Shown: piece after piece, positions 433 through 33,728 of the stretch
Layout: every line of letters begins with the position of its first letter
How positions within the stretch are numbered: the first letter of the stretch is position 1
Program-made: the position numbers and the translations under genes
Notes under the pieces: model-generated
Databases searched by the model: none
What the model saw: only the letters and a program-made list of their open reading frames with translations
Told to the model about the DNA's origin: nothing
DNA from: an uncultured Chloroflexota bacterium
GTDB lineage: Bacteria; Chloroflexota; Limnocylindria; Limnocylindrales; CSP1-4
Direction: 5' to 3'
Assembly: GCA_903925955.1 (NCBI GenBank)
Contig: CAIYHO010000106.1
Span: 1-33,728 of the forward strand
Length of the DNA stretch: 33,728 bases

Positions 433-776
433 CCCATCTCCAAGATCGGCCTGATCTCGATGGTGCCCAGAGCGGCACCCGGAATGCGCGCGGCGGCCTC
501 AATGGCTGCGTCCAGATCGACAGCGTTGATCAGGTAGTAGCCGCCCAGCTGCTCCTTCGTCTCGGCAAAGGGCCCATCGCTCACGAGGCGCTTGCCGTTC
601 CGGATGGCAACCGTGGTTGCGGCCGACGGGTCCTGCAGCGCCTCCCCGCCCAGATGCTGACCGGTGTCCTCCAGCCAGTGCGTGTAGGCGTCGTACGCCT
701 GCCACATGGCGCCCATCTCGGCCTCATTCTGGGGCTGTGCGGCCGGGTCGCCGTAGATCATCAACAGGTAGCGCAT
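429..776 (-). CDS. YCII-related (DGPF-domain) protein
   Basis: A 115-residue protein beginning MRYLLMIYGDP and containing the LVSDGPFAETKEQLGGYY signature that gives the DGPF/YCII family its name. The fold is a small ferredoxin-like dimeric alpha-beta barrel. Members are routinely paired with COG4941-type sigma factors and may act as sensors or partners, but their biochemical role is unknown. The ATG is preceded by a GAGGGA ribosome binding site about 9 nt upstream. The stop overlaps the start of the downstream sigma factor. Length is typical for the family. Confidence 0.92.
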   Translation of the reverse strand: MRYLLMIYGDPAAQPQNEAEMGAMWQAYDAYTHWLEDTGQHLGGEALQDPSAATTVAIRNGKRLVSDGPFAETKEQLGGYYLINAVDLDAAIEAAARIPGAALGTIEIRPILEMG

Positions 777-897
777 CGCGTTGTCCCTCGGGTACAGGGG
801 CCCGGCAGTTGCGGGCCGTCATCCTAACGACGAATTGCCAAGCGCGATTTCGACAGCGTCACGGGCGCTTCTTGCGGCATCGTGCGAGCATTCCGCC

Positions 898-2415
898 ATG
901 GCGTCGCCCAAGGAGATCCTGGTCATCGGGGGCCGCGAGGTTGCGGTGAGCAACCCCGGGAAGATCTACTTCCCGCAGGCCGGATACACAAAGCTTGATC
1001 TGGTCCGCTACTTCCTGTCGGTGGCCGACGGCGCGGTCCTGGGTGTCCGGGGCCGGCCGATGGCGCTGAAGCGCTTTGTGGACGGGGCCGAAGCCGAACC
1101 CTTCTTCCAGAAGCGCGCGCCGGACAACCGACCGCCGTGGCTGCGCGTTGCCACGCTGACGTTCCCCTCCGGCCGGACGGCCGACGAGATCGTGGTGGAC
1201 GATGCCGCCGGGCTTGCCTGGGTGGCCAACCTTGGCTGTCTTGACCTGAACCCGCACCCGGTCCGCGCAGAGGACCTGGACCACCCCGACGAGCTGCGCG
1301 TGGACCTGGACCCGGTGCCGGGCGTGCCGTGGTCGCAGATCCGCCTCGTGGCCATGGTGGTGCAGGAGTCGCTGGCCTCGGTTGGGCTGGTTGGCTGGCC
1401 GAAGACCTCCGGCTCGCGTGGCATCCACATCAACGTGCGGATTGAGCCGCGCTGGACGTTCCCGGAGGTGCGGCGGGCGGCGCTGGCGCTGGCGCGCGAT
1501 GTGGAGCGGCGTGCGCCCACGCTTGCGACGTCGAAGTGGTGGAAGGAGGAGCGCCACGGCGTATTCCTCGACTACAACCAGAACGCGCGGGACCGTACGG
1601 TGGCGTCTGCCTACTCCGTGCGGCCGCTGCCCGATGCGCGGGTCTCGTTCCCGCTGCGCTGGGACGAGGTACCTGTTGCGGTAGCCGAGGACTTCACGCT
1701 GGCCACCGTGCCCGCGATCTACGCGGCTCGGGGCGATGCTGGCGCTGGTATCGATGCCGCCGTGGGCTCGCTTGAGGCGCTCCTGGAGCTGTCCGCGCGT
1801 GATGAGGCTGAGGGGCTGGGCGATGCGCCCTGGCCACCGAACTACGCGAAGCAGGACGGGGAGCCGCCGCGGGTCCAGCCGTCGCGTGCGCGCCGCCCGG
1901 CTTCCGAGTACCAGCCGGGCAAGGGCGTTGCCGGTGGTCCGCCACCGGACGTTGCTGCCGAGCGGGCAGCCGCCGTGGCCGCTGGGGATCCCAACGCGGG
2001 TCTGCCGCAGCTGCCCACTCTGGCGCCCGGGTCCGAGGGCTGGCAGGGCACCCGCCCAACGCCCACCGGCCGTCGCCGCTCGTCCATCCCCGTCATCGAG
2101 ATCGCCCGCGCCGCGTCCAAGCGCGAGGTCCAGGCGGGCTTCGAGCGCTGGTCCCTGCGCCACCCGGAAGCCGCCGCGCACCTCGAGCCCGCAGACGTCC
2201 TCACCGACGCCATGCGCGGCCGCTCATCTGCCTGGTACCGCCTGCGCGTCAACCTGACACATGTCCCGGAGCCGCTGCGCCCGGCCCAGGAGGAACTCGA
2301 CCCGGACTACGACCCGTGGGCGTCAATCACGCCCGAGGAGCGCGCCGCGTGGGAGACCGCGCAGGCAGCTCTTGGTGGGCGACGAACGGCACCAAGGAGG
2401 CGCGACGATGGTTGA
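898..2415 (+). CDS. Stand-alone LigD-type polymerase/primase domain (NHEJ)
   Basis: 505 residues from the ATG at 898; the longer ORF from 781 adds an unlike N-terminus and is not favoured. Residues ~10-275 are an archaeo-eukaryotic primase-like polymerase domain: the metal-binding pair in ELRVDLDPVPG (D136, D138), the nucleotide-binding SGSRGIHINV (H177) and the third acidic residue in FLDYNQNARDRTVASAYSVRP (D225). This domain fills gaps and adds nucleotides at broken DNA ends. A disordered Pro/Ala/Arg-rich linker (~350-420) leads to a C-terminal segment (YRLRVNLTHVPEPLRPAQE, then LDPDYDPW) like that of actinobacterial stand-alone polymerases. No ligase or phosphoesterase domain is fused. A LigC-like ligase lies 4 kb away, so the NHEJ activities are split. 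The stop overlaps the next gene by 8 nt. Confidence 0.9.
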   Translation: MASPKEILVIGGREVAVSNPGKIYFPQAGYTKLDLVRYFLSVADGAVLGVRGRPMALKRFVDGAEAEPFFQKRAPDNRPPWLRVATLTFPSGRTADEIVVDDAAGLAWVANLGCLDLNPHPVRAEDLDHPDELRVDLDPVPGVPWSQIRLVAMVVQESLASVGLVGWPKTSGSRGIHINVRIEPRWTFPEVRRAALALARDVERRAPTLATSKWWKEERHGVFLDYNQNARDRTVASAYSVRPLPDARVSFPLRWDEVPVAVAEDFTLATVPAIYAARGDAGAGIDAAVGSLEALLELSARDEAEGLGDAPWPPNYAKQDGEPPRVQPSRARRPASEYQPGKGVAGGPPPDVAAERAAAVAAGDPNAGLPQLPTLAPGSEGWQGTRPTPTGRRRSSIPVIEIARAASKREVQAGFERWSLRHPEAAAHLEPADVLTDAMRGRSSAWYRLRVNLTHVPEPLRPAQEELDPDYDPWASITPEERAAWETAQAALGGRRTAPRRRDDG

Positions 2416-10060: not shown

Positions 10061-10171
10061 GACCCACGCCTGACTCAGGACACAACCCGGCACACACGGT
10101 TCGGACCCCGGGACGCGGTTTCGGGGTCCGGACTCTGCACGATGCACGCCCCGGTGAGTCTGAGCTGGGTC
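10061..10171 (+). repeat. Palindromic repeat family, copy 1 (GACCCA subfamily, 111 bp)
   Basis: The outer arms are GACCCACGCCTGACTCAGG at the left and GGTGAGTCTGAGCTGGGTC at the right, partly complementary with perfect GACCCA/TGGGTC ends. Inside is a strong hairpin, CGGACCCCG (10102-10110) pairing perfectly with CGGGGTCCG (10122-10130), then CTCTGCACG. It is homologous in order and spacing to copies at 21930, 30956 and 31999. It sits between convergent genes and may end transcription from both sides. Confidence 0.75.
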
Positions 10172-21929: not shown

Positions 21930-22040
21930 GACCCACCACAGACTCACACGGCGCCTCACCGTGCAGAGCTCGGCGCCTGATGGGTCGCCTTCCGCCTCGA
22001 ACCCTGCACGCCGATGTCGATGCTGAGTCAGGCGTGGGTC
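21930..22040 (-). repeat. Palindromic repeat family, copy 2 (GACCCA subfamily, 111 bp, reversed)
   Basis: On the minus strand it reads GACCCACGCCTGACTCAGC at the start and GTGAGTCTGTGGTGGGTC at the end, with the same outer arms and the same 111-bp length as copy 1. Inside are GTGCAGGGTTCG and CGAGCTCTGCAC, which pair with each other (two G-U pairs), forming an inner stem also present in copies 3 and 4. It lies between the convergent zinc-ribbon and kinase genes. Confidence 0.75.
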
Positions 22041-22088: not shown

Positions 22089-24041
22089 CTACGGCGTGCA
22101 CGTACCGCCAAACGAGGCGCTGTCGTAGAACTCGAAGTTGATGGTGCTCCCGGTGGCCACCTTGGAGCCAGCCGCCAGCGACTGCGTCCAAGCGAACCAG
22201 GCAGTGCGGTCAAACGAGTTGGCCGGATCAGGGTTGCCATCCGGAAGGCCCGTGATCGTGCCCATCTTGAGACCGTCAGCCGCGAGCGCGTCTGCGACGT
22301 CGCCAAGCAGCTGGCACTTGTAGTTGGGCACGGTCACCTTGGCGGGCGTCGGGACCGGTGTGGGGGCCGGCGTGGGGGCCGGCGTGGGCGTGGGTGTTGG
22401 TGACGGCGTGGGCGTGGGCGTAGGCGACGGCTCCGGGCCATCGGACACCACGTAGCTCACGGGCGTGCCGGGGGCCACGATGACGCCCGGCAGCGGGTTC
22501 TGGCTGATGATGGCGCCAGCAGCCACAAGCGGGTCAAACCCGGTGGTGCGGGTGCCGATGGCGAGCCCCGCCGTCACAACCTCCTTGAGCGCGTCGGCCT
22601 CCACCTTGCCGCGCATGTCAGGGACGGTGACAGACTGCTTGCCGCGGGCGACGGTCAGCTGGATCTGGGATCCGGCGGCAACCGCCGCACCCTGCAGGGG
22701 GTTCTGCGCAATGACCGTGTCCGGCGCAACGTCGGCACGCTCCTCAGACGCGGAGCGCACAACGGTCAGGCCAAGCTGGGCCGCGTTCTTCTCCGCATCC
22801 GCGTAGGCCATGTTGATGAACGAGGGCACGGTGACCATCGCACCGGATGCCGTGGGTGACGGAGTGGCGCTGGCGGCCGGGCCGCCCGAGACAAACTTGA
22901 AGACCAGCAGGCCGAAGACCAACAGAATGGCGATGGCGAGGCCACCCGCGATCCAGGCCCACGGACCCGCGTCCTGCTCGTCGCCATCAGACATGGGCGG
23001 CGGGGGCGGCACGCTTCGCGTGGAGATGGGCGCGGGACCACCGGGTCGGGCGTAGGCGTCGGGCGGATAGGGCATCGGGGGCGCAGGGCGCGCCGGGATG
23101 CCGGCGCCGGCAGGGCGGGGCACGCCTGGGAGACCCGAAGCGGCAGCCGCACCGGCAGCCACACCGGCGGCAGCCACACCGGCGGCAGCTCCGGCCGCGG
23201 CGGACCCGCCAACTCCTGTGTCAGCCAGAAACCCGTCCAGCGCACCGGCCATTGCGGCAGCCGTGGGGTAGCGGTCATCGGGATCGAAGGCCATCGCGCG
23301 CAGGACAATCGCGTCAAGTTCTGACGGGATGGACCCGCGCAGCGAGGACGGGCGCGGCGGCGTGGTGGTCAGGCGGGCCAGCGCCACGGCGGCGGCTCCG
23401 TCTCCGCTGAACGGCCGCTGGCCGGTGAGCGCCTCAAACAGGACGATGCCCAGGGCGTAGATGTCGGAGGCGGCCGTGGCCTGCTCCCCGCGCGCCTGCT
23501 CCGGCGCAAAGTAGTGCACGGAACCCATCGTGGTGCCGGGCATGGTGATCTGCGATTCGGCAATCGCCCGGGCGATGCCAAAGTCCGCAACCTTCACGCG
23601 CCCATCTCGGCCCACAAGGATGTTGGACGGCTTCACGTCGCGGTGGACGATGCCGTGGACGTGGGCGGCGTGGAGCGCCTTGGCAACCTCGGCCGCCACA
23701 CGTGCAGACTGGCGCGGGGCCAGCGGGCCGTTGTCGCGCAGGATGGCGCCCAGATCCTGGCCGTCCACCAGCTCCATGACGATGTACGGACCGGACTCCT
23801 CTTCGCCGAAGTCAAAGACCGCCACGATGTTGGGGTGGCTCAGCGAGGCGGCGGCGCGTGCCTCGTCGCGGAAGCGGGCGAGGAAGTCCGGATCGCGGCC
23901 AAACTCCGGACGCAGCAGCTTGATGGCAACGTCCCGCTCCAGCTGGGCATCACGGGCGCGGTAGATGCTCGCCATGCCGCCCTGCCCGAGCAGCTCAAGC
24001 AGACGGTATCGGCCGTCCAGCGTGCTCCCGATCTCGGTCAT
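22089..24041 (-). CDS. pknB: PknB-like Ser/Thr protein kinase with PASTA domains
   Basis: 650 residues. The kinase domain (12-270) has the glycine loop LGQGGMASIY, K41, HRDVKPSNIL (D135) and VADFGIARA (DFG 153-155), so it should be active. An Ala/Gly-rich linker (~279-345) leads to one transmembrane segment (~362-384). Outside are PASTA 1 (~402-466) and PASTA 2 (~470-534). A Thr-Pro repeat (~537-567) and a divergent third PASTA-like unit (~568-650) with two cysteines (NYKCQLLG, GGTCTP) follow. PASTA domains bind cell-wall fragments, so the protein likely couples wall state to phosphorylation. It follows galU by 51 nt on the same strand. Confidence 0.96.
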   Translation of the reverse strand: MTEIGSTLDGRYRLLELLGQGGMASIYRARDAQLERDVAIKLLRPEFGRDPDFLARFRDEARAAASLSHPNIVAVFDFGEEESGPYIVMELVDGQDLGAILRDNGPLAPRQSARVAAEVAKALHAAHVHGIVHRDVKPSNILVGRDGRVKVADFGIARAIAESQITMPGTTMGSVHYFAPEQARGEQATAASDIYALGIVLFEALTGQRPFSGDGAAAVALARLTTTPPRPSSLRGSIPSELDAIVLRAMAFDPDDRYPTAAAMAGALDGFLADTGVGGSAAAGAAAGVAAAGVAAGAAAASGLPGVPRPAGAGIPARPAPPMPYPPDAYARPGGPAPISTRSVPPPPPMSDGDEQDAGPWAWIAGGLAIAILLVFGLLVFKFVSGGPAASATPSPTASGAMVTVPSFINMAYADAEKNAAQLGLTVVRSASEERADVAPDTVIAQNPLQGAAVAAGSQIQLTVARGKQSVTVPDMRGKVEADALKEVVTAGLAIGTRTTGFDPLVAAGAIISQNPLPGVIVAPGTPVSYVVSDGPEPSPTPTPTPSPTPTPTPAPTPAPTPVPTPAKVTVPNYKCQLLGDVADALAADGLKMGTITGLPDGNPDPANSFDRTAWFAWTQSLAAGSKVATGSTINFEFYDSASFGGTCTP

Positions 24042-27183: not shown

Positions 27184-28746
27184 TCATCCTGCTGATACCG
27201 CCACCAGACCGGACCGCGCAGGCACCTCAAGCGCCACGTGGCCATCGGCGCCCGGCACCAGCACTGCGCCCGCAGGAACGCCGGGCAGCGCGAGGACCGT
27301 CAGCAGCCGGCCGGCCAGCTCCGGCGCCCAGACGTCCACCCACGCTGGTCCGTCGCCAGCGTTTACGGCCACTAGCGCAGCCCCGGCATCGCCCGCATCG
27401 CGGACAAATGCCATGGCGTCGCCCGCAGAACCGGCCACGCGGAACGTGCCCCGACGCAGCGCGGCCGTTGCGTGGCGGATCGCCAGCGCGGCGCGGGTCC
27501 AGGCCAGCCCGTCGGCGTCCCACGTGGACTCGTCCCACGGGAAGGAGCGGCGGCAATCGGGATCGTGATCGCCCTCCACGCCAACCTCGTTGCCGTAGTA
27601 GATGCACGGCGCTCCGGGCAGCGTGGCCTGGAGCAGCACGGCCAAGCGCCAGGCGCCAGGATCTCGGCCAGCCATGGTCCGGAAGCGCGGGCTGTCGTGG
27701 CTGTCGAGCAGGTTGAGCTGCACCTCGGTGATCGCCCTGTCGTATAAGCCCATCAGCCGCTCAAGCTCTCCGCCAAAGGCGGCGCCGTCACGCCGGTGCG
27801 TCCTGCTGCCGTACTCGTGGTGGCTGCGGACAACGTGCTCGTTGAGGTGGCCCTGCGCGGCGTACCCAAGGATCGCCTGCGCCAGCGGGTAGTTCATCAG
27901 CGCGTCAAACCTGGTGCCGGCCAGCCACTCGGGCGCCTCATGCCAGATCTCGCCCACGATGTACGCCTCGGGGTTGACCGCCCGACAGCGCGTCCGGAAC
28001 TCCTCCCAGAAGCCCTCGTCGCGGATCTCGGCCGGGACATCCAGCCGCCAGCCGTCGATGCCAAACTTGAGCCAGTACTCGGCCACACCCATGAGGTACT
28101 CGCGGACCAGCGGGTTGCCGGTGTTGAGTTTGGGCAGCGCGGGCAGGCCCCACCAGGCGCGGTAGCCAAGCCGGTGGAAGGACTCGTCGCCCTTGTCGTC
28201 CCACGTGGGCTGGAACGCCGGGTCCACGGGCCAGTGATCGTTGTCCGTGGGCCAGGGGTACGGGCGGAACGGCCGCTGCCTGGCAAGCGCTGCAGGCACG
28301 TAGTGGAACCACTCGCGATACGGCGAGCCATCGCCGGTCTCCAGCACGTGGTGGAAGGGCCAGAAGCCGCGCCCGGTGTGGTTAAACACGCCGTCCAGCA
28401 CCACCTTGATGCCGCGCGCGTGGGCCGCGTCAAGCAGTTCGCGCAGGGCGTCGTTGCCGCCCAGCAGCGGATCCACCGTCATGTAGTCGTACGTGTGGTA
28501 CCGGTGGTTGGACGCCGACGCGAAGATGGGGCACAGATAGATGGCATTGATGCCCAGATCCGCCAGATACGGCAGATGCTCCACAATCCCCAGCAGGTCC
28601 CCGCCCTTGAACCCGTGATGGGTTGGCGGCGCGCCCCATGGCTCCAGCGGACCCGGCTTGGGGACGCGGGCGGAGATCGCGAAGCGGTCCGGGAAGATCT
28701 GGTAGAAGACGGCGTCGCGGACCCAGCTTGGCGTGTAGATGGACAT
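27184..28746 (-). CDS. Cytoplasmic GH13 alpha-glucan hydrolase (cyclomaltodextrinase/neopullulanase-like)
   Basis: 520 residues with no signal peptide. The barrel starts at once (PSWVRDAVFYQIFPDRFA), so the N-terminal CBM34 domain of classical neopullulanases is absent. Conserved GH13 regions: DGVFNHTG (118-125), DGWRLDVPAEI (nucleophile D236), VGEIWHE (acid/base E266) and LLDSHDSPR (D351), with CIYYGNEVGVEGDHDPDCRR typical of this subgroup. A C-terminal beta domain follows (~430-520). It would hydrolyse imported maltodextrins or cyclodextrins inside the cell, fitting the transporter genes at the right edge. TAGACT lies 6 nt before the ATG. It is divergent from the exported amylase with only 38 bp between. 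Confidence 0.93.
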   Translation of the reverse strand: MSIYTPSWVRDAVFYQIFPDRFAISARVPKPGPLEPWGAPPTHHGFKGGDLLGIVEHLPYLADLGINAIYLCPIFASASNHRYHTYDYMTVDPLLGGNDALRELLDAAHARGIKVVLDGVFNHTGRGFWPFHHVLETGDGSPYREWFHYVPAALARQRPFRPYPWPTDNDHWPVDPAFQPTWDDKGDESFHRLGYRAWWGLPALPKLNTGNPLVREYLMGVAEYWLKFGIDGWRLDVPAEIRDEGFWEEFRTRCRAVNPEAYIVGEIWHEAPEWLAGTRFDALMNYPLAQAILGYAAQGHLNEHVVRSHHEYGSRTHRRDGAAFGGELERLMGLYDRAITEVQLNLLDSHDSPRFRTMAGRDPGAWRLAVLLQATLPGAPCIYYGNEVGVEGDHDPDCRRSFPWDESTWDADGLAWTRAALAIRHATAALRRGTFRVAGSAGDAMAFVRDAGDAGAALVAVNAGDGPAWVDVWAPELAGRLLTVLALPGVPAGAVLVPGADGHVALEVPARSGLVAVSAG

Positions 28747-28784
28747 TCGCAGAGTCTACGTGCGACGCGGTTAGACTGGTGCCG
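28747..28784. promoter_or_regulatory. Compact divergent promoter region between two GH13 genes
   Basis: The same hexamer TAGACT occurs on each strand: minus strand 28758-28753, 6 nt before the ATG at 28746; plus strand 28772-28777, 7 nt before the ATG at 28785. Both transcripts would be leaderless, and each -35 region would lie in or next to the opposite gene's start. A regulator bound here would control both genes. Confidence 0.55.
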
Positions 28785-30518
28785 ATGGATGTACAGCAGC
28801 GCCTTCTCACGTCTCTTGCGGCGGTCCTGATCGCGGCGTCTGGCTGCGGCTCGCAGGCACCGTCCCCGACGGCCCCATTGGCTCCGTCGGCGGCACCTAC
28901 CGCCACTACGGCGGCCTCAGCCACAGCAGCGCCCGGCTCAGCCTGCACAGCCGCAGCCACGCCTGCGTCCAAGGACTGGAACAAAGGGACCTGGTACGAG
29001 GTCTTTGTCCGCAGCTTTGCCGATGGCAACAACGACGGGATCGGCGATCTGCAGGGCCTCACGGCCAAGCTTGACTACCTCAACGACGGCAACCCGGGTA
29101 CCACCACGGACCTCGGCATCACCGGGATCTGGCTGATGCCCGTGTTTGAGTCGCCCAGCTACCACGGCTACGACGTGATCGACTACCGCAAGATCGAGAA
29201 GGACTACGGCACCAACGCGGACTTTGTCACGTTCCTTGCCGCTGCCCACAAGCGCGGCATCAAGGTGATCCTGGATCTTGTGCTGAACCACAGCTCCAAC
29301 CGCAACCCGTGGTTCATCGCCTCCGCCAAGAAAGACCCCAAGTACGCGGACTGGTACACGTGGTCAGACACGAACCCCAGCTACATGGGCCCCGAGAACC
29401 AGGTGGTCTGGCGCGAGAACGGCGGACGCTGGTACTACGGGCTCTTCTCGGAGCAGATGCCAGACCTGAACATCGCCAACCCGGCGGTCACGGCCGAAAT
29501 GGAGTCAATCGCCAAGTACTGGCTGAGCGACGTTGGCGTGGACGGGTTCCGGCTTGATGCCGTGAAGTACCTCATCGATGAGGGCAAGAAGCAGGCCAAC
29601 ACCAAATCCACGATGGACTGGCTGGCGGGCTTCCACAAGGCGGTGCTGGCGGACAACCCGGGGGCGATGCTCGTGGGCGAGGTCTGGGACACCTCCACAA
29701 CGGCCGGCAGCTACGTGCCCGGCGCCATGGACCTGACGTTCAACTTCGGGCTGTCCACGGGCACCAGGCTGGCGCTCCAGAACCAGCGTGTCGCGCCGCT
29801 GAAGACCGGGCTCATGGACACGCTCACCGCGTGGCCGCCGTCGCAGTCCGGCATCTTCCTAGCCAACCACGACCAGAACCGGATCATGGGCGAGCTTGGC
29901 GGTGATGTGGCGGCTGCGAAGCTGGCAGCGTTCCTGCTGTTCAGCGAGCCGGGCGTGCCGTTTATGTACTACGGCGAGGAGATCGGCATGACGGGCCACA
30001 AGCCCGACGAGCAGATCCGCACGCCCATGCAGTGGACCGCCGACGGGCCGGCCGGCGGCTTCTCCCCGGTGACGCCGTGGGAGCCGATGGAGGCCGACTG
30101 GCAGACGGTCAACGTGGCGGCCCAGACAACCGACCCGGCGAGCCTGCTGTCAACCTACCGCGCGCTCGTTCAGCTCCGGGCCGCCGAACCCGCGCTGCAG
30201 GGCGGTGAGACGGCCATCGTGGACGGCGGGGCGGAGCCGGTCATCGGCATCCTGCGGTCGCTGCCGGGACGCACGCTCCTCACCGTGACCAACGTGAGCA
30301 GCACGGACGTGACCGACTACGGGCTCACGCTTGATGGCGGACCGCTCTGCGGCAACGTCAAGGCGACCGTTGTGGCCAGCACGGGCGTGGACGCCGCCAC
30401 GCTGGCCGCTATCGCCAGCCCATTGGTCACGGCCACCGGCGGCCTCAACGCCTACAAGCCCTTCGCCGGGCTGCCGCCGCGCAGTGCTGTCGTCATCGCC
30501 CTGGAGCCGCTGCCGTGA
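28785..30518 (+). CDS. Exported GH13 alpha-amylase-like lipoprotein
   Basis: 577 residues from the ATG at 28785. A signal peptide ends in a lipobox (IAASGC, C21) and is followed by a Thr/Ala/Pro-rich linker to ~60. The GH13 barrel has WYEVFVRSFADGNNDGIGDL, LDLVLNHSS (region I), VDGFRLDAVKYL (nucleophile D258), VGEVWD (acid/base E299) and LANHDQNRI (D363), then MYYGEEIGMTG and a C-terminal beta domain. It would cut alpha-glucans outside the cell, and the products would enter through the Mal-type transporter. The stop overlaps the next gene by 4 nt (GTGA). Confidence 0.94.
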   Translation: MDVQQRLLTSLAAVLIAASGCGSQAPSPTAPLAPSAAPTATTAASATAAPGSACTAAATPASKDWNKGTWYEVFVRSFADGNNDGIGDLQGLTAKLDYLNDGNPGTTTDLGITGIWLMPVFESPSYHGYDVIDYRKIEKDYGTNADFVTFLAAAHKRGIKVILDLVLNHSSNRNPWFIASAKKDPKYADWYTWSDTNPSYMGPENQVVWRENGGRWYYGLFSEQMPDLNIANPAVTAEMESIAKYWLSDVGVDGFRLDAVKYLIDEGKKQANTKSTMDWLAGFHKAVLADNPGAMLVGEVWDTSTTAGSYVPGAMDLTFNFGLSTGTRLALQNQRVAPLKTGLMDTLTAWPPSQSGIFLANHDQNRIMGELGGDVAAAKLAAFLLFSEPGVPFMYYGEEIGMTGHKPDEQIRTPMQWTADGPAGGFSPVTPWEPMEADWQTVNVAAQTTDPASLLSTYRALVQLRAAEPALQGGETAIVDGGAEPVIGILRSLPGRTLLTVTNVSSTDVTDYGLTLDGGPLCGNVKATVVASTGVDAATLAAIASPLVTATGGLNAYKPFAGLPPRSAVVIALEPLP

Positions 30519-30946
30519 CGCTGCGGGACGCGGACAAGCCCCAGCGCCCGCGGCGCCCGCTCCTGCTGGAGTTGGCATCCGCGTTCATGATCGTGAACGG
30601 GCTGCTGAGCACGTCCGCGTCCGCCACCATCGTCATGAAGCTGGGCGAGACGCCGGGCGTCGGGGATCCGGGGGTCCTGCTCCTGATCACGCTTGCCATC
30701 GGCATCAGCACGATCGTGCTGGGCATCCTCATCCGGTATGCCCGCGCCTGGATCGTGGCGCTCAACGTCGCGGCCGTGGCGGGCTTCCTCGAGCTCACCG
30801 CCGGCAGCCAGCCGGGCCTGATCGTGGGCCTGCTGGACGTGTTCGTCGTGTTGGCGCTGCTGATGACCCGGCCCTGGTTCACGTGGTCGCCGGACGGCGC
30901 CGCTGATCAGGACGCGGCCGAAGGCGCCGCAGCCGAAGGCGCGTGA
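30515..30946 (+). CDS. Small four-pass membrane protein
   Basis: 143 residues with a GTG start that overlaps the amylase stop. Hydrophobic segments: LLLELASAFMIVNGLLSTSA, LLLITLAIGISTIVLGILIR, AWIVALNVAAVAGFLELTAG and LIVGLLDVFVVLALLMTRPW. The C-terminus is acidic and Ala/Glu-rich (DQDAAEGAAAEGA). No family is recognised. Translation coupling ties it to the exported amylase; any role in glucan use is inferred. Confidence 0.75.
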   Translation: MTLRDADKPQRPRRPLLLELASAFMIVNGLLSTSASATIVMKLGETPGVGDPGVLLLITLAIGISTIVLGILIRYARAWIVALNVAAVAGFLELTAGSQPGLIVGLLDVFVVLALLMTRPWFTWSPDGAADQDAAEGAAAEGA

Positions 30947-30955
30947 AACCACCCC

Positions 30956-31068
30956 GAATTCACGCCTGACTCAGGCCGCGGGGTGACGCGCAGGGTTCGT
31001 GCCCCCAAGTCGCGGTTCGCCCTTCGAGCTCTGCACCCGGGACGCAATCCTGAGTCACTGGTGAATTC
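30956..31068 (+). repeat. Palindromic repeat family, copy 3 (GAATTC subfamily, 113 bp)
   Basis: The ends are GAATTCACGCCTGACTCAGG and CCTGAGTCACTGGTGAATTC, complementary at 17 of 20 positions. The inner stem is GCGCAGGGTTCG against CGAGCTCTGCAC. By hand alignment it agrees with copy 4 at about 94 of 113 positions with no gaps and in the same orientation. It lies between the convergent membrane-protein and XRE genes. Confidence 0.85.
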
Positions 31069-31097
31069 CGGAGGGGCCACTACCCTGTCCCCGCTCG

Positions 31098-31904
31098 CTA
31101 TGCCCGAAGCAGGCGCGTCGCAGCATCCGCGTAGTCCGCGTAGGCCGGCGGGCGTCGGCGCCCCCCGAGCGTTGTTGCGCCGAGCCAGTCGGCCCGTCGG
31201 CGGGCTGGGTCCGCGGTGCCGAGCACCCAGCCCTGGGGCGGCGGCCGGCTCGGATCTGCCAGCCAGGCCGCGGCAGCGTCAACTGGTCCGGGGAACGCGT
31301 GCCCGATGAGGTCGCGCTGGTCTGCAAGGCGTCGGGCGACGGTTTGCGTGTCAAGGGCGACCACCAACACGGCGACCCGCTGCGGACGCCACCCAAGCTC
31401 TCGAGCAGCCTGCCACGCCTCGCGCACATAGAAGGCGAGCGTTCGCTGCAGGGCCCCAACATCGTCAATCACGGTCTTGGTCTCCTCAACGAGGAGGGTG
31501 CGGTCAGCCTCGCGGAAGCCCAGCAGGTCAATCCAACCCTTCGGCGAATTGAGCCCCAACTGCACCTCCGACGCGGTGTGCCACGCATCGCGCTGCAACC
31601 GCCCAGCCACGTAGCCGTTGAGCCGCGCATGCAACGCCCCGCGCTGGTGGCGCCGATCCTCCAGGTGCCGGCCGTCCAGATCAAGCGTGGCCCGAATGCC
31701 CAGCGCCGCAAGCACGGACGCTAGCGCTCGCAGGTCAAGGTCAGCCCGGGCGGTCTCAATCCTGCAGACCATCGACTGCGACGTGTGGGCCCGGATGGCG
31801 AGTTCCTGCTGCGTCCAGCCGATGAGCTGCCGCGCCTCCTTGACGAGGTCCGCAACCTGCCCCGGCATGCCGAGTTGGCCGAGTTGGATCCTGGTGCCTG
31901 CCAT
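31098..31904 (-). CDS. XRE-family regulator with PD-(D/E)XK-like nuclease domain
   Basis: 268 residues. The helix-turn-helix (~17-75) reads LVKEARQLIGWTQQELAIRA, HTSQSMVCRIETARADLDLR. The C-terminal domain has the restriction-endonuclease-like layout: ASEVQLGLNSPKGWIDLLGF (D126), then RTLLVEETKTVIDDVGALQR (E141-x-K143), and a helix with Q153. This is the pattern of uncharacterised actinobacterial XRE proteins that carry the ELKTE-type motif. Unlike its relative at 3694-4458, the E-x-K is intact. It lies on the strand opposite to the amylase, inside the glucan locus and between two copies of the palindromic repeat. The nuclease assignment is by motif only; the protein might use the fold only for binding. 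Confidence 0.8.
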   Translation of the reverse strand: MAGTRIQLGQLGMPGQVADLVKEARQLIGWTQQELAIRAHTSQSMVCRIETARADLDLRALASVLAALGIRATLDLDGRHLEDRRHQRGALHARLNGYVAGRLQRDAWHTASEVQLGLNSPKGWIDLLGFREADRTLLVEETKTVIDDVGALQRTLAFYVREAWQAARELGWRPQRVAVLVVALDTQTVARRLADQRDLIGHAFPGPVDAAAAWLADPSRPPPQGWVLGTADPARRRADWLGATTLGGRRRPPAYADYADAATRLLRA

Positions 31905-31943
31905 GGGCAGACCCTAGCGAACCGCGCTTATCCCAGCCTTATC
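31905..31943 (-). promoter_or_regulatory. Promoter and two-box operator of the second XRE gene
   Basis: On the minus strand TAGGGT (31916-31911) lies 6 nt before the ATG. Upstream are two exact GATAAG boxes (31932-31927 and 31943-31938), 11 bp apart start to start, the nearer ending 22 bp before the ATG. Box sequence, period and distance are the same as at 4459-4508. Confidence 0.62.
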
Positions 31944-31974
31944 TGGATGGGCCTCTACCGCCGCGCGACGCCGC

Positions 31975-32170
31975 GAATTCGCCCCTGACTCAGCCCGCGA
32001 ATTCACCCATGACTCAGACCACGGCCTGACACGCAGGGCTCGATCCCGCAAGTCGCGGTTCGCCCCGCGAGCTCCGCACCCGGGGCCTGATCCTGAGTCA
32101 CCGGTGAATTCAGGGCATGCCAAACGTCAGCTCCGCACCCGGGGCCTGATCCTGAGTCACCGGTGAATTC
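31975..32170 (+). repeat. Palindromic repeat family, copy 4, with duplicated left and right arms
   Basis: The 113-bp core is 31999-32111 and ends in GAATTC on both sides. A second left arm (GAATTCGCCCCTGACTCAG) precedes it at 31975. A second right arm follows: 42 bp at 32129-32170 are identical to 32070-32111, a 59-bp shift. The unit occupies most of the 303-bp gene-free stretch 31905-32207, between the permease gene and the XRE promoter. Confidence 0.85.
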
Positions 32171-32207
32171 CGGACGTGCTGGACGTCGCGTGGCGCCCGC
32201 CGGACGA

Positions 32208-33155
32208 TCAGCCCTTGACGCCGCCCACAGCGAGCCCGCCAACCAGGTATCGCTGGAAGACGAAGAACACCACGGATACCGGCAGGGCAAACAGGATGGC
32301 GAATGCTCCAAACTCGGACCAGGTCGTTGTTCGGGCGAAGCCGCCCACCATGCTGTTGAGGGCAATTGACAGCGTCCAGTCCGAGACGGTGCCGCCCACA
32401 AACATGTAGCAGGTGAGGTACTCGCTCCAGCCGCCCAGGAAGCCCAGGAAGCCGGTCACGGCGATGGCCGGGATGGACAGGGGCAGGATGACCTTGCGGA
32501 AGATCTGGAACTGCGTCGCGCCGTCCACGGCGGCAGCCTCTTCCAGGTCCTTGGGCACGGTGTCCAGATAGCCCTTGAGGTTCCAGATGGCGAACGGCAG
32601 CTGGCCGGCGATCACCGCGAGGATGACGCCGATAAGCGAGGCGCGAAGGTTGAACGAGAGGCCGCCGAAGTCAATCCGGAACTGGTTGAGGAAGACGTAG
32701 AGCGGGATCATCGTGGCGACGGCCGGCAGCATCAGCACGCCCAGGATGCCAATCATCAGGGCCTCTCGGCCGCGGAACCGGAGCCTGGAGAACGCATAGG
32801 CGGCGGTGACGCCCAGGAGGACAGCGACGACGGAGCTGCCCAGGGCGATCTTGAGGCTGTTGGCCATCAACCCGAAGAAGCTGATGTCATTGGTCGTGGG
32901 CCGGTTCAAGACCTTGGCGTACGCGTCCAGCGACGCGCCCGCCGGGATCAGGTTGAGCGCGTCCGGTCGAGCAATGTTCCGGGGGTCGATCGACATGCTC
33001 ACGATCCAGATGATCGGGAACAGCACTGTCAGGGTGATGAACAGACAAATGACTTGGATGAGCAACTGGCGGCTGAGCGGCAGCGGGCGCTCGGCGCGGC
33101 TGCTGTCAGCGCTCTTGCGACGGGGCTTGGATGCCGGTGTTGCGGCAGCGGTCAT
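32208..33155 (-). CDS. MalG-type sugar ABC transporter permease
   Basis: 315 residues. A cytoplasmic basic N-terminus (1-25) is followed by about six membrane segments, the first LLIQVICLFITLTVLFPIIW. The EAA loop that contacts the ATPase reads LEEAAAVDGATQFQIFRKVI, then LPLSIPAIAV. The QLPFAIWNLKGYLDTVPKDL stretch and the C-terminal FVFQRYLVGGLAVGGVKG are typical of MalG. Maltose, maltodextrin or cyclodextrin is the likely substrate given the two GH13 genes nearby; substrate is inference. GGAG lies 8 nt before the ATG. It follows the MalF-type gene by 27 nt. Confidence 0.93.
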   Translation of the reverse strand: MTAAATPASKPRRKSADSSRAERPLPLSRQLLIQVICLFITLTVLFPIIWIVSMSIDPRNIARPDALNLIPAGASLDAYAKVLNRPTTNDISFFGLMANSLKIALGSSVVAVLLGVTAAYAFSRLRFRGREALMIGILGVLMLPAVATMIPLYVFLNQFRIDFGGLSFNLRASLIGVILAVIAGQLPFAIWNLKGYLDTVPKDLEEAAAVDGATQFQIFRKVILPLSIPAIAVTGFLGFLGGWSEYLTCYMFVGGTVSDWTLSIALNSMVGGFARTTTWSEFGAFAILFALPVSVVFFVFQRYLVGGLAVGGVKG

Positions 33156-33182: not shown

Positions 33183-33728
33183 CTATTCGGCGTAGCTCTT
33201 GGTCGCCTGAGCAAGCCGGTTTGTCACCAGCGTCACGGCGAGGAGCAGGAAGAACAGATAGACGGCGAACGCGGCGGCCACGCCGTAGAGCTGGCGGTCG
33301 TACGCGAGGCGGTAGGCCTGCGTCACCAGGATCTCGGTCCGGCCAAACGGCTCGCCTGCCGTCATGAAGTACGGCAGCGAGAAGAGGTTGAACGTCACCA
33401 CGAAGCCGTAGATGGCAAAGGGCAGCATCGCTGGCCGCAGGAACGGGATCGTGATGGTTCGGAACTTCTGCCACCAGTTGGCGCCGTCCATCTCGGCCGC
33501 CTCATAGAGCTCACCCGGGATGCTCTGGAGGGCGCCTGTGGCCACCACCGAGTTGAGCGGCCAGCCCAGCCAGGTATTGGCGGTGATCATGGCGAAGTAC
33601 GCCAGGGGCAGCGGGATGAACGGGATGGGGTCGTTGACCTGGCGGATCCAGTCCAGGTTCAGACCCGGGGCCGTGGCTGCCACGCCAAACAGGCCGGCAA
33701 CCGCCTGGAGCAGGAAGTTCACCGCACC
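33183..33728 (-). CDS. MalF-type sugar ABC transporter permease, N-terminus outside window
   Basis: The last ~181 residues are present; the start lies beyond the right edge, so the ATG in the ORF track is internal. Membrane segments include ITANTWLGWPLNSVVATGAL and FAVYLFFLLLAVTLVTNRLA. The EAA loop is YEAAEMDGANWWQKFRTITI, then PFLRPAMLPFAIYGF. The end KSYAE is common in MalF relatives. It pairs with the MalG-type permease as the two halves of the membrane channel. The binding protein is expected further upstream, outside the window. Confidence 0.92.
   Translation of the reverse strand, partial: GAVNFLLQAVAGLFGVAATAPGLNLDWIRQVNDPIPFIPLPLAYFAMITANTWLGWPLNSVVATGALQSIPGELYEAAEMDGANWWQKFRTITIPFLRPAMLPFAIYGFVVTFNLFSLPYFMTAGEPFGRTEILVTQAYRLAYDRQLYGVAAAFAVYLFFLLLAVTLVTNRLAQATKSYAE

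Follow-up and report, generated by a model that had tools for sequence, protein, structure and literature searches.

A predicted XRE–PD-(D/E)XK nuclease gene between 111-bp dyad elements in a Chloroflexi-related genome: a candidate selfish mobile system

Why should a gene for a predicted nuclease lie between two copies of a short repeat in the gap between glycoside hydrolase and permease genes, and do the gene and the repeats belong together? The window analysed here, 33,728 nt in length, is an entire contig (C106) of a Chloroflexi-related MAG of 3.64 Mb in 308 contigs, and its features are collected in Table 1. A preliminary description had placed the gene between two repeats of the same orientation and about 83% identity, with two GH13 enzymes on one side and Mal-type permeases on the other. 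The ORFs agree with these neighbours, and comparison of the copies at 30956-31068 and 31999-32111 confirmed both their identity (83% over 120 nt) and their shared orientation (0.83 direct versus 0.65 inverted). The repeats that flank the gene are whole elements, each with a terminal inverted repeat of its own. The first two copies in the window have another end type, GACCCA (B), unlike the A type that flanks the gene. Elsewhere in the window, direct repeats at 4580-4616/4642-4678 contain the palindrome GATGCCCGGCAGGCATC and could be a further type of dispersed repeat; a second direct pair lies nearby at 4681-4724/4753-4796.

Table 1. Positions of genes, elements and element ends in the window
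Feature	Position	Strand	Remarks
111-bp element, B type (GACCCA ends)	10061-10171		convergent intergenic gap; orthologous gap in G007 without element
111-bp element, B type	21930-22040		intergenic, 49 bp past 3′ end of ORF 22089-24041
GH13 ORF	27184-28746	-
GH13 ORF	about 28779-30518	+
Small ORF	30515-30946	+	follows GH13 gene
111-bp element, A type, ends AATTCACGCCTGACTCA...TGAGTCACTGGTGAATT	30957-31067 (repeat copy 30956-31068)		downstream of XRE + PD-(D/E)XK gene
XRE + PD-(D/E)XK gene	31098-31904	-	268-aa ORF; 31 bp and ~95 bp from its two flanking repeats
Two ATAAG boxes, 11 bp apart	31927-31942	-	directly upstream of start codon
Solo element end, A type with one mismatch, AATTCGCCCCTGACTCA	31976-31992	+
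111-bp element, A type	32000-32110 (repeat copy 31999-32111)		start-codon side of gene; direct repeat of 30957-31067
Solo element end, A type	32153-32169	-	within 59-bp tandem duplication (32070-32128/32129-32187)
MalG/MalF-type permease	32208-33155	-
MalG/MalF-type permease	33183-33722	-

The predicted nuclease and its relatives

The protein joins an XRE HTH at residues about 13-70 (Pfam HTH_3, above cut-off) to a PD-(D/E)XK nuclease domain at residues about 90-184 (D126-E141-K143). Both are present in the AlphaFold (AF2) model (mean pLDDT 89), in which the core runs H90-105, E109-116, E123-131, E136-143, H149-169, E176-184, the alpha-beta-beta-beta-alpha-beta order of the superfamily, with D and (D/E)xK on adjacent strands. 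E113, D126, E141 and K143 are invariant in 29 homologs. By its fold and its conserved active-site residues, the window protein is a predicted nuclease. It shares this fold and the ID..ExK motif with the UPF0102, MmcB-like, NucS and R2 retrotransposon enzymes, but the matches to them are weak and partial and no described family spans the full protein; outside HTH_3, family profile searches found no described family. Foldseek likewise gave only weak matches across the chain, to the R2 endonuclease region and to BstEII, and placed HipB and C proteins closest to the HTH part. Like HipB antitoxins and the C proteins of restriction-modification systems, the window protein has an HTH domain; unlike them, it is a single fused protein with a nuclease domain. 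Neither HipA nor a restriction-modification partner lies beside the gene in the window, where its neighbours are the small ORF and a permease. With a HipB profile (couple_hipB) score of 38.5 bits against an NCBIfam cut-off of 71.65 and no adjacent HipA kinase, a HipBA toxin-antitoxin pair was rejected.

Homologs were found in 32 of the 61 genomes searched, with up to eight per genome, and in none of 19 reduced genomes of a sister family. Every genome used is a fragmented MAG; those with homologs are 54-97% complete, except for G059 of another family, which is more complete. A search for related loci with a narrow alignment returned six Chloroflexi MAG loci and one weak short match, and returned no match with a single protein or a broad alignment. 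The phage, plasmid and viral collections INPHARED, PLSDB and IMG/VR held no relative, so that an origin from any of these was rejected. ATAAG or GTAAG boxes stand directly upstream of the start codon in most homologs. The pair in the window is likely an operator or promoter, and its recurrence across the family suggests a candidate autoregulatory operator, separate from the elements.

Architecture of the 111-bp element

Searches of the genome with GAATTCACNNNTGACTCAG (up to three mismatches) gave 47 matches versus two for the reversed control. The A motif AATTCACNNNTGACTCA (AATTCAC..GACTCA, up to one mismatch) occurs 26 times in this genome, 10 times in the sister genome G007, twice in G008 and nowhere else among 37 genomes, its reversed control giving none. 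Since both counts lie far above those of the reversed controls, the repeat is not due to chance. Element ends were located by pattern and then paired by distance, which yielded 42 intervals in the examined part of the genome, including a spurious one at window 30946 that came from a shift in reading. The 35-36 non-redundant elements align without gaps over 111 columns at a mean pairwise identity of 57% (50% in the interior). Their ends are conserved, with AATTCA, TATTCA or GACCCA as the outer half-site and GACTCA or TGGGTC as the inner one; also conserved are the centre and the inner boxes, GTGCA.GG.TCG and its inverse, around positions 31-43 and 69-81. Near-identical copies are exclusively local tandem ones; contigs C2, C9, C74, C192 and C307 of this genome contain such arrays, spaced about 160-210 bp. 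Several contigs stop in or beside elements, so that the assembly breaks there and element copy numbers are lower bounds.

Dyad partners within the element are complementary in 65% of cells, compared with 29-39% when slid. Reshuffling the partners among sequences left this value unchanged (64.8% before, 64.3% after), and the symmetry of the interior therefore reflects conservation of the boxes and not compensatory pairing. Accordingly, pair counts on the element alignment found no hairpin-type base-pair covariation inside the element; covariation is confined to the outer hexamers, as a switch of end type. The two end centres are a fixed distance of about 94 bp apart, close to nine helical turns, which is suggestive only. 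In these respects the element looks like the site of a protein-DNA complex of set geometry, not like a hairpin.

Elements occur in all kinds of intergenic gap, 18 of the 48 placeable ones between convergent 3′ ends; genes were called for this purpose by a crude codon model, with whose ORFs 12 of the 73 elements overlap, in most cases at the end of the ORF. An array of promoters or operators was rejected, as these contexts do not fit it. At the borders of 55 elements there was no excess of direct duplications of 2-9 bp, and this lack of a target-site duplication disfavours ordinary DDE transposition.

Pairing of genes with end types, and gain and loss at loci

Elements lie on both sides of the gene at other loci too. 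The paralog on contig C151 of this genome, 69-70% identical to the window protein, sits between two 111-bp B-type elements (GACCCA), while elements of 110-112 bp flank the homologs in G005, G003 (C62), G006 (C327) and G016 on both sides, their ends being GAGTCGCGTCAGACTC, GAGTCACGTCAGACTC, TCCGTCACCTGTGGCGGA and CATGAGCACCACTCATG, respectively; in G013 and G028 the flanking pairs measure 119 and 93 bp. Several further homologs have at least one adjoining element, and G007 too holds elements of 110-112 bp with other ends. Homologs with as little as about 35% identity, in other species, stand beside or between elements of constant length with different ends; more distant ones have palindromic repeats nearby whose size is larger or unclear. 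If elements were placed uniformly, such close two-sided flanking would arise at a given locus with a probability of about 1e-7 (A, G016, G005, G003) or 5e-6 (B). A blind symmetry score of at least 14 of 17 was reached by 10 of 60 homolog flanks versus 2 of 175 control-gene flanks (p 3e-5), a score that is weak for individual loci, as are generic symmetry scans by themselves in GC-rich DNA. Because end types differ, a profile of this genome's own elements gave merely weak matches in G005 and at other loci. Downstream of the C151 paralog (L099 2811-2932), the stop codon overlaps the first base pairs of the element end.

The abundance of each end type follows the gene. GAGTCNNGTCAGACTC was counted 13 times in G005, 12 in G003, twice in G002 and once in G011, with none elsewhere among 37 genomes; the G016 motif (up to two mismatches) occurs 24 times in G016 and 0-4 times in other genomes, and the B motif has 79 matches here versus 10 or fewer in any other genome, part of the latter being background. 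Tabulated for four types, with half-sites counted in fragmented MAGs, end type against genome comes close to a diagonal: a type is abundant only where its gene lineage occurs. Most matches lie on contigs other than that of the gene. Ends change rapidly between species and several types are found per genome; with an end sequence particular to each gene lineage, more than one such system would be present within a single genome. By eye, AACTC-type ends were noticed near three homologs (L101, L106, L111) with Trp47 in the recognition helix, which hints at reading of the ends by the HTH but in too few cases to claim it.

The preliminary description had likened the locus to a cassette able to move, or to be lost by recombination between its repeats. 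As regards a unit that comes and goes, the comparison of genomes agrees: in the congeners G001, G003, G005 and G010 the same GH13 and permease neighbours are joined, with neither gene nor element. The C151 unit is likewise missing in G007, where 385 bp separate the flanks instead of about 1520 bp (read base by base), and in the other congeners G001-G005 and G009-G011, as judged by the spacing of flanking matches. Bracketing by repeats is common to the homologs, with clearly direct copies in four of eight loci. For excision through recombination of the two copies there was no such backing: a junction with a single repeat was not observed, and the empty loci are free of the repeat altogether. 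Moreover, the repeats stand at dozens of gene-free places and so are not simply the borders of a cassette. Their occurrence elsewhere without a link to such genes had been named as grounds for dropping the idea; this applies by half only, since copies are indeed found at other places, yet with an end type that goes with the gene being present.

The gap between convergent genes at the window locus seems to accept insertions repeatedly. In G013, a genome of another genus (C225, L115), a homolog 34-35% identical and its 119-bp direct-repeat elements occupy the same permease/GH13 gap, most simply by an independent insertion. In the sister genome G007 (C243:4500-6000, L139), exactly this place is taken up by unrelated DNA of about 770 bp, in which a 207-aa ORF (483-1106, minus strand) may lie.

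Single elements differ between genomes as well. The B element at C151:7505 has no counterpart at the orthologous sites of G007 and G008, and on C52 an A element is common to G007 but the adjoining B element is absent there. A elements are often at the same sites in G000 and G007, 75-97% identical. Most of the A elements tested are common to G007 in this way, which makes their spread slow or old, and dispersed copies (interior about 54%) are more diverged than these orthologs, which gives no sign of a recent wave of copying from one distant site to another. B copies, too, differ from one another (interior about 54%) beyond what a burst after the split from G007 would leave; possible reasons are that G007 lost its copies, that a set was imported when it was diverse already, or that copying is error-prone. 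At the G007 site on C30 (L229) orthologous to this genome's B-type element C122:3341-3451, a different palindrome, CCCGTCAGACGGGTG...CATCAGACGGGTG, is found, through replacement or a change of end type in place.

Candidate explanations and known systems

Across species the gene adjoins its elements, the elements keep a fixed length, each type is abundant in its own genomes, and gene units and some elements are present in one genome and absent from the next. We consider it probable that the gene and the 111-bp elements together make up a single mobile system, chromosomal and probably selfish, of which each is one half. From the association of genes with end types, the protein would recognise the palindromic ends of its own element type, probably binding as a dimer at each end and bringing both ends, about 94 bp apart, together. 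It would then cut the DNA at the element ends, and this cutting, followed by repair or recombination, would drive the spread of elements to new intergenic sites; occasionally the gene, with an element on each side, would itself move to such a site. Counter-points to the mobile reading are the lack of target-site duplications, the divergence of dispersed copies, the many A elements common to G007 at the same sites, and the fact that the ATAAG promoter boxes are common to the family and the element ends are not.

Since XRE proteins usually autoregulate, the window protein might instead be a host transcription factor, its nuclease domain purely structural, with the elements as operators and their adjacency to the gene as autoregulation. 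The kinship of its HTH with HipB and C proteins and the ATAAG boxes before the start codon are in keeping with this, but a regulon sits poorly with elements in every sort of intergenic gap (18 of 48 between convergent 3′ ends) and on both sides of the gene, with invariant nuclease residues, with B-type counts that range from 79 to at most 10 among congeners, and with the gain and loss of gene and elements as units; we hold it to be unlikely. Quite unlikely, in our judgement, is a role in chromosome organisation or genome maintenance, with the protein bridging dispersed elements for nucleoid structure or segregation to the host's benefit. The fixed 111-bp length, the conservation of inner boxes and little else, and the orthologous A elements kept between G000 and G007 all suggest a constrained protein-DNA complex; a host function of this kind is nevertheless hard to square with the patchy presence of the gene, its lack in the reduced sister family, the coexistence of several types per genome and the rapid shift of end sequences between species.

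The elements might also be MITE-like repeats of an unrelated transposon that captured the XRE gene as a chance passenger between two copies. Terminal inverted repeats, short length and intergenic position speak for this, yet loci in other species are built in the same way from elements whose ends are unrelated in sequence, and classical DDE transposon or MITE features are lacking: there is no target-site duplication (55 elements), copies are not homogeneous, their interiors (about 50-55%) being too diverged, and no Y1 transposase occurs in 37 genomes. We therefore find such a capture very unlikely. That the elements encode a structured RNA is barely credible. Dyad symmetry does allow a strand to fold (mean z -2.4 over the full element against mononucleotide shuffles), but the interior folds no better than shuffles (z -0.7), its paired cells match reshuffled ones, and a search of 30900-32250 against Rfam gave no match; with nothing found inside the element by Rfam search or pair counting, this candidate was rejected.

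Among known systems, that of RAYT (REP-associated tyrosine transposase) genes and REP/REPIN sequences comes to mind. There, the gene is flanked by dispersed intergenic repeats whose ends are palindromes arranged as inverted pairs; a genome may have several types, each with a gene to itself; repeat abundance tracks the gene; and local tandem clusters occur (PMC2817692, PMC3116915). The system described here has these features as well, the window gene being flanked by cognate repeats abundant in the genome. Its product, however, is an XRE–PD-(D/E)XK protein and not a Y1/HUH transposase: the Y1 domain PF01797 was found in neither this genome nor 36 relatives, with a control search positive in 5 of 14 known genomes, and in Pfam the window protein matches HTH_3 only, so that identity as a RAYT was rejected. 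The elements also differ in being fixed in length and free of internal base-pair covariation; their ends lack a GTAG-type head, as far as inspected; and flanking copies are often direct rather than inverted. The system would thus work like RAYT/REPIN but is not a member, because the transposase is absent and the element has no hairpin covariation.

Enterobacterial intergenic repeats, namely ERIC/RU-1 (127 bp), RU-2 and RU-3 (PMC2759123), offer a second comparison. The 111-bp elements resemble them in being short, intergenic, of set length and MITE-like, and are set apart by their phylum and by the cognate gene between copies. We know of no cognate gene between ERIC/RU copies. A nuclease gene within its own recognition sequences would be homing-like, as in free-standing PD-(D/E)XK homing endonucleases; what sets the present case apart is that the target would be a family of repeats dispersed over the genome, most of them away from any such gene, and that the element is lacking at empty loci.

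Neither the full-length protein nor the element is assignable to any described family that we found, and a search of open-access papers (preprints excluded) gave no description of such a gene-plus-repeat system. On a stricter view, it could be a variant of the known kind in which a repeat has a cognate gene. We see as finely balanced the proposal of a new selfish class, in which a dispersed 111-bp dyad element is propagated by an XRE-PD-(D/E)XK endonuclease without kinship to RAYTs, the end sequence co-evolves with the protein, and any one genome of this Chloroflexi family can have several pairs side by side, subject to turnover. If true, this would be a second, independent origin of the combination of a nuclease gene with cognate dispersed palindromes, so far represented mainly by RAYT/REPIN, and would bear on why short fixed-length repeats persist in bacterial genomes. 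Since the end sequence is found next to each gene, the family would be a ready set of protein-site pairs, from which one may learn how a single-chain HTH-nuclease changes its DNA specificity.
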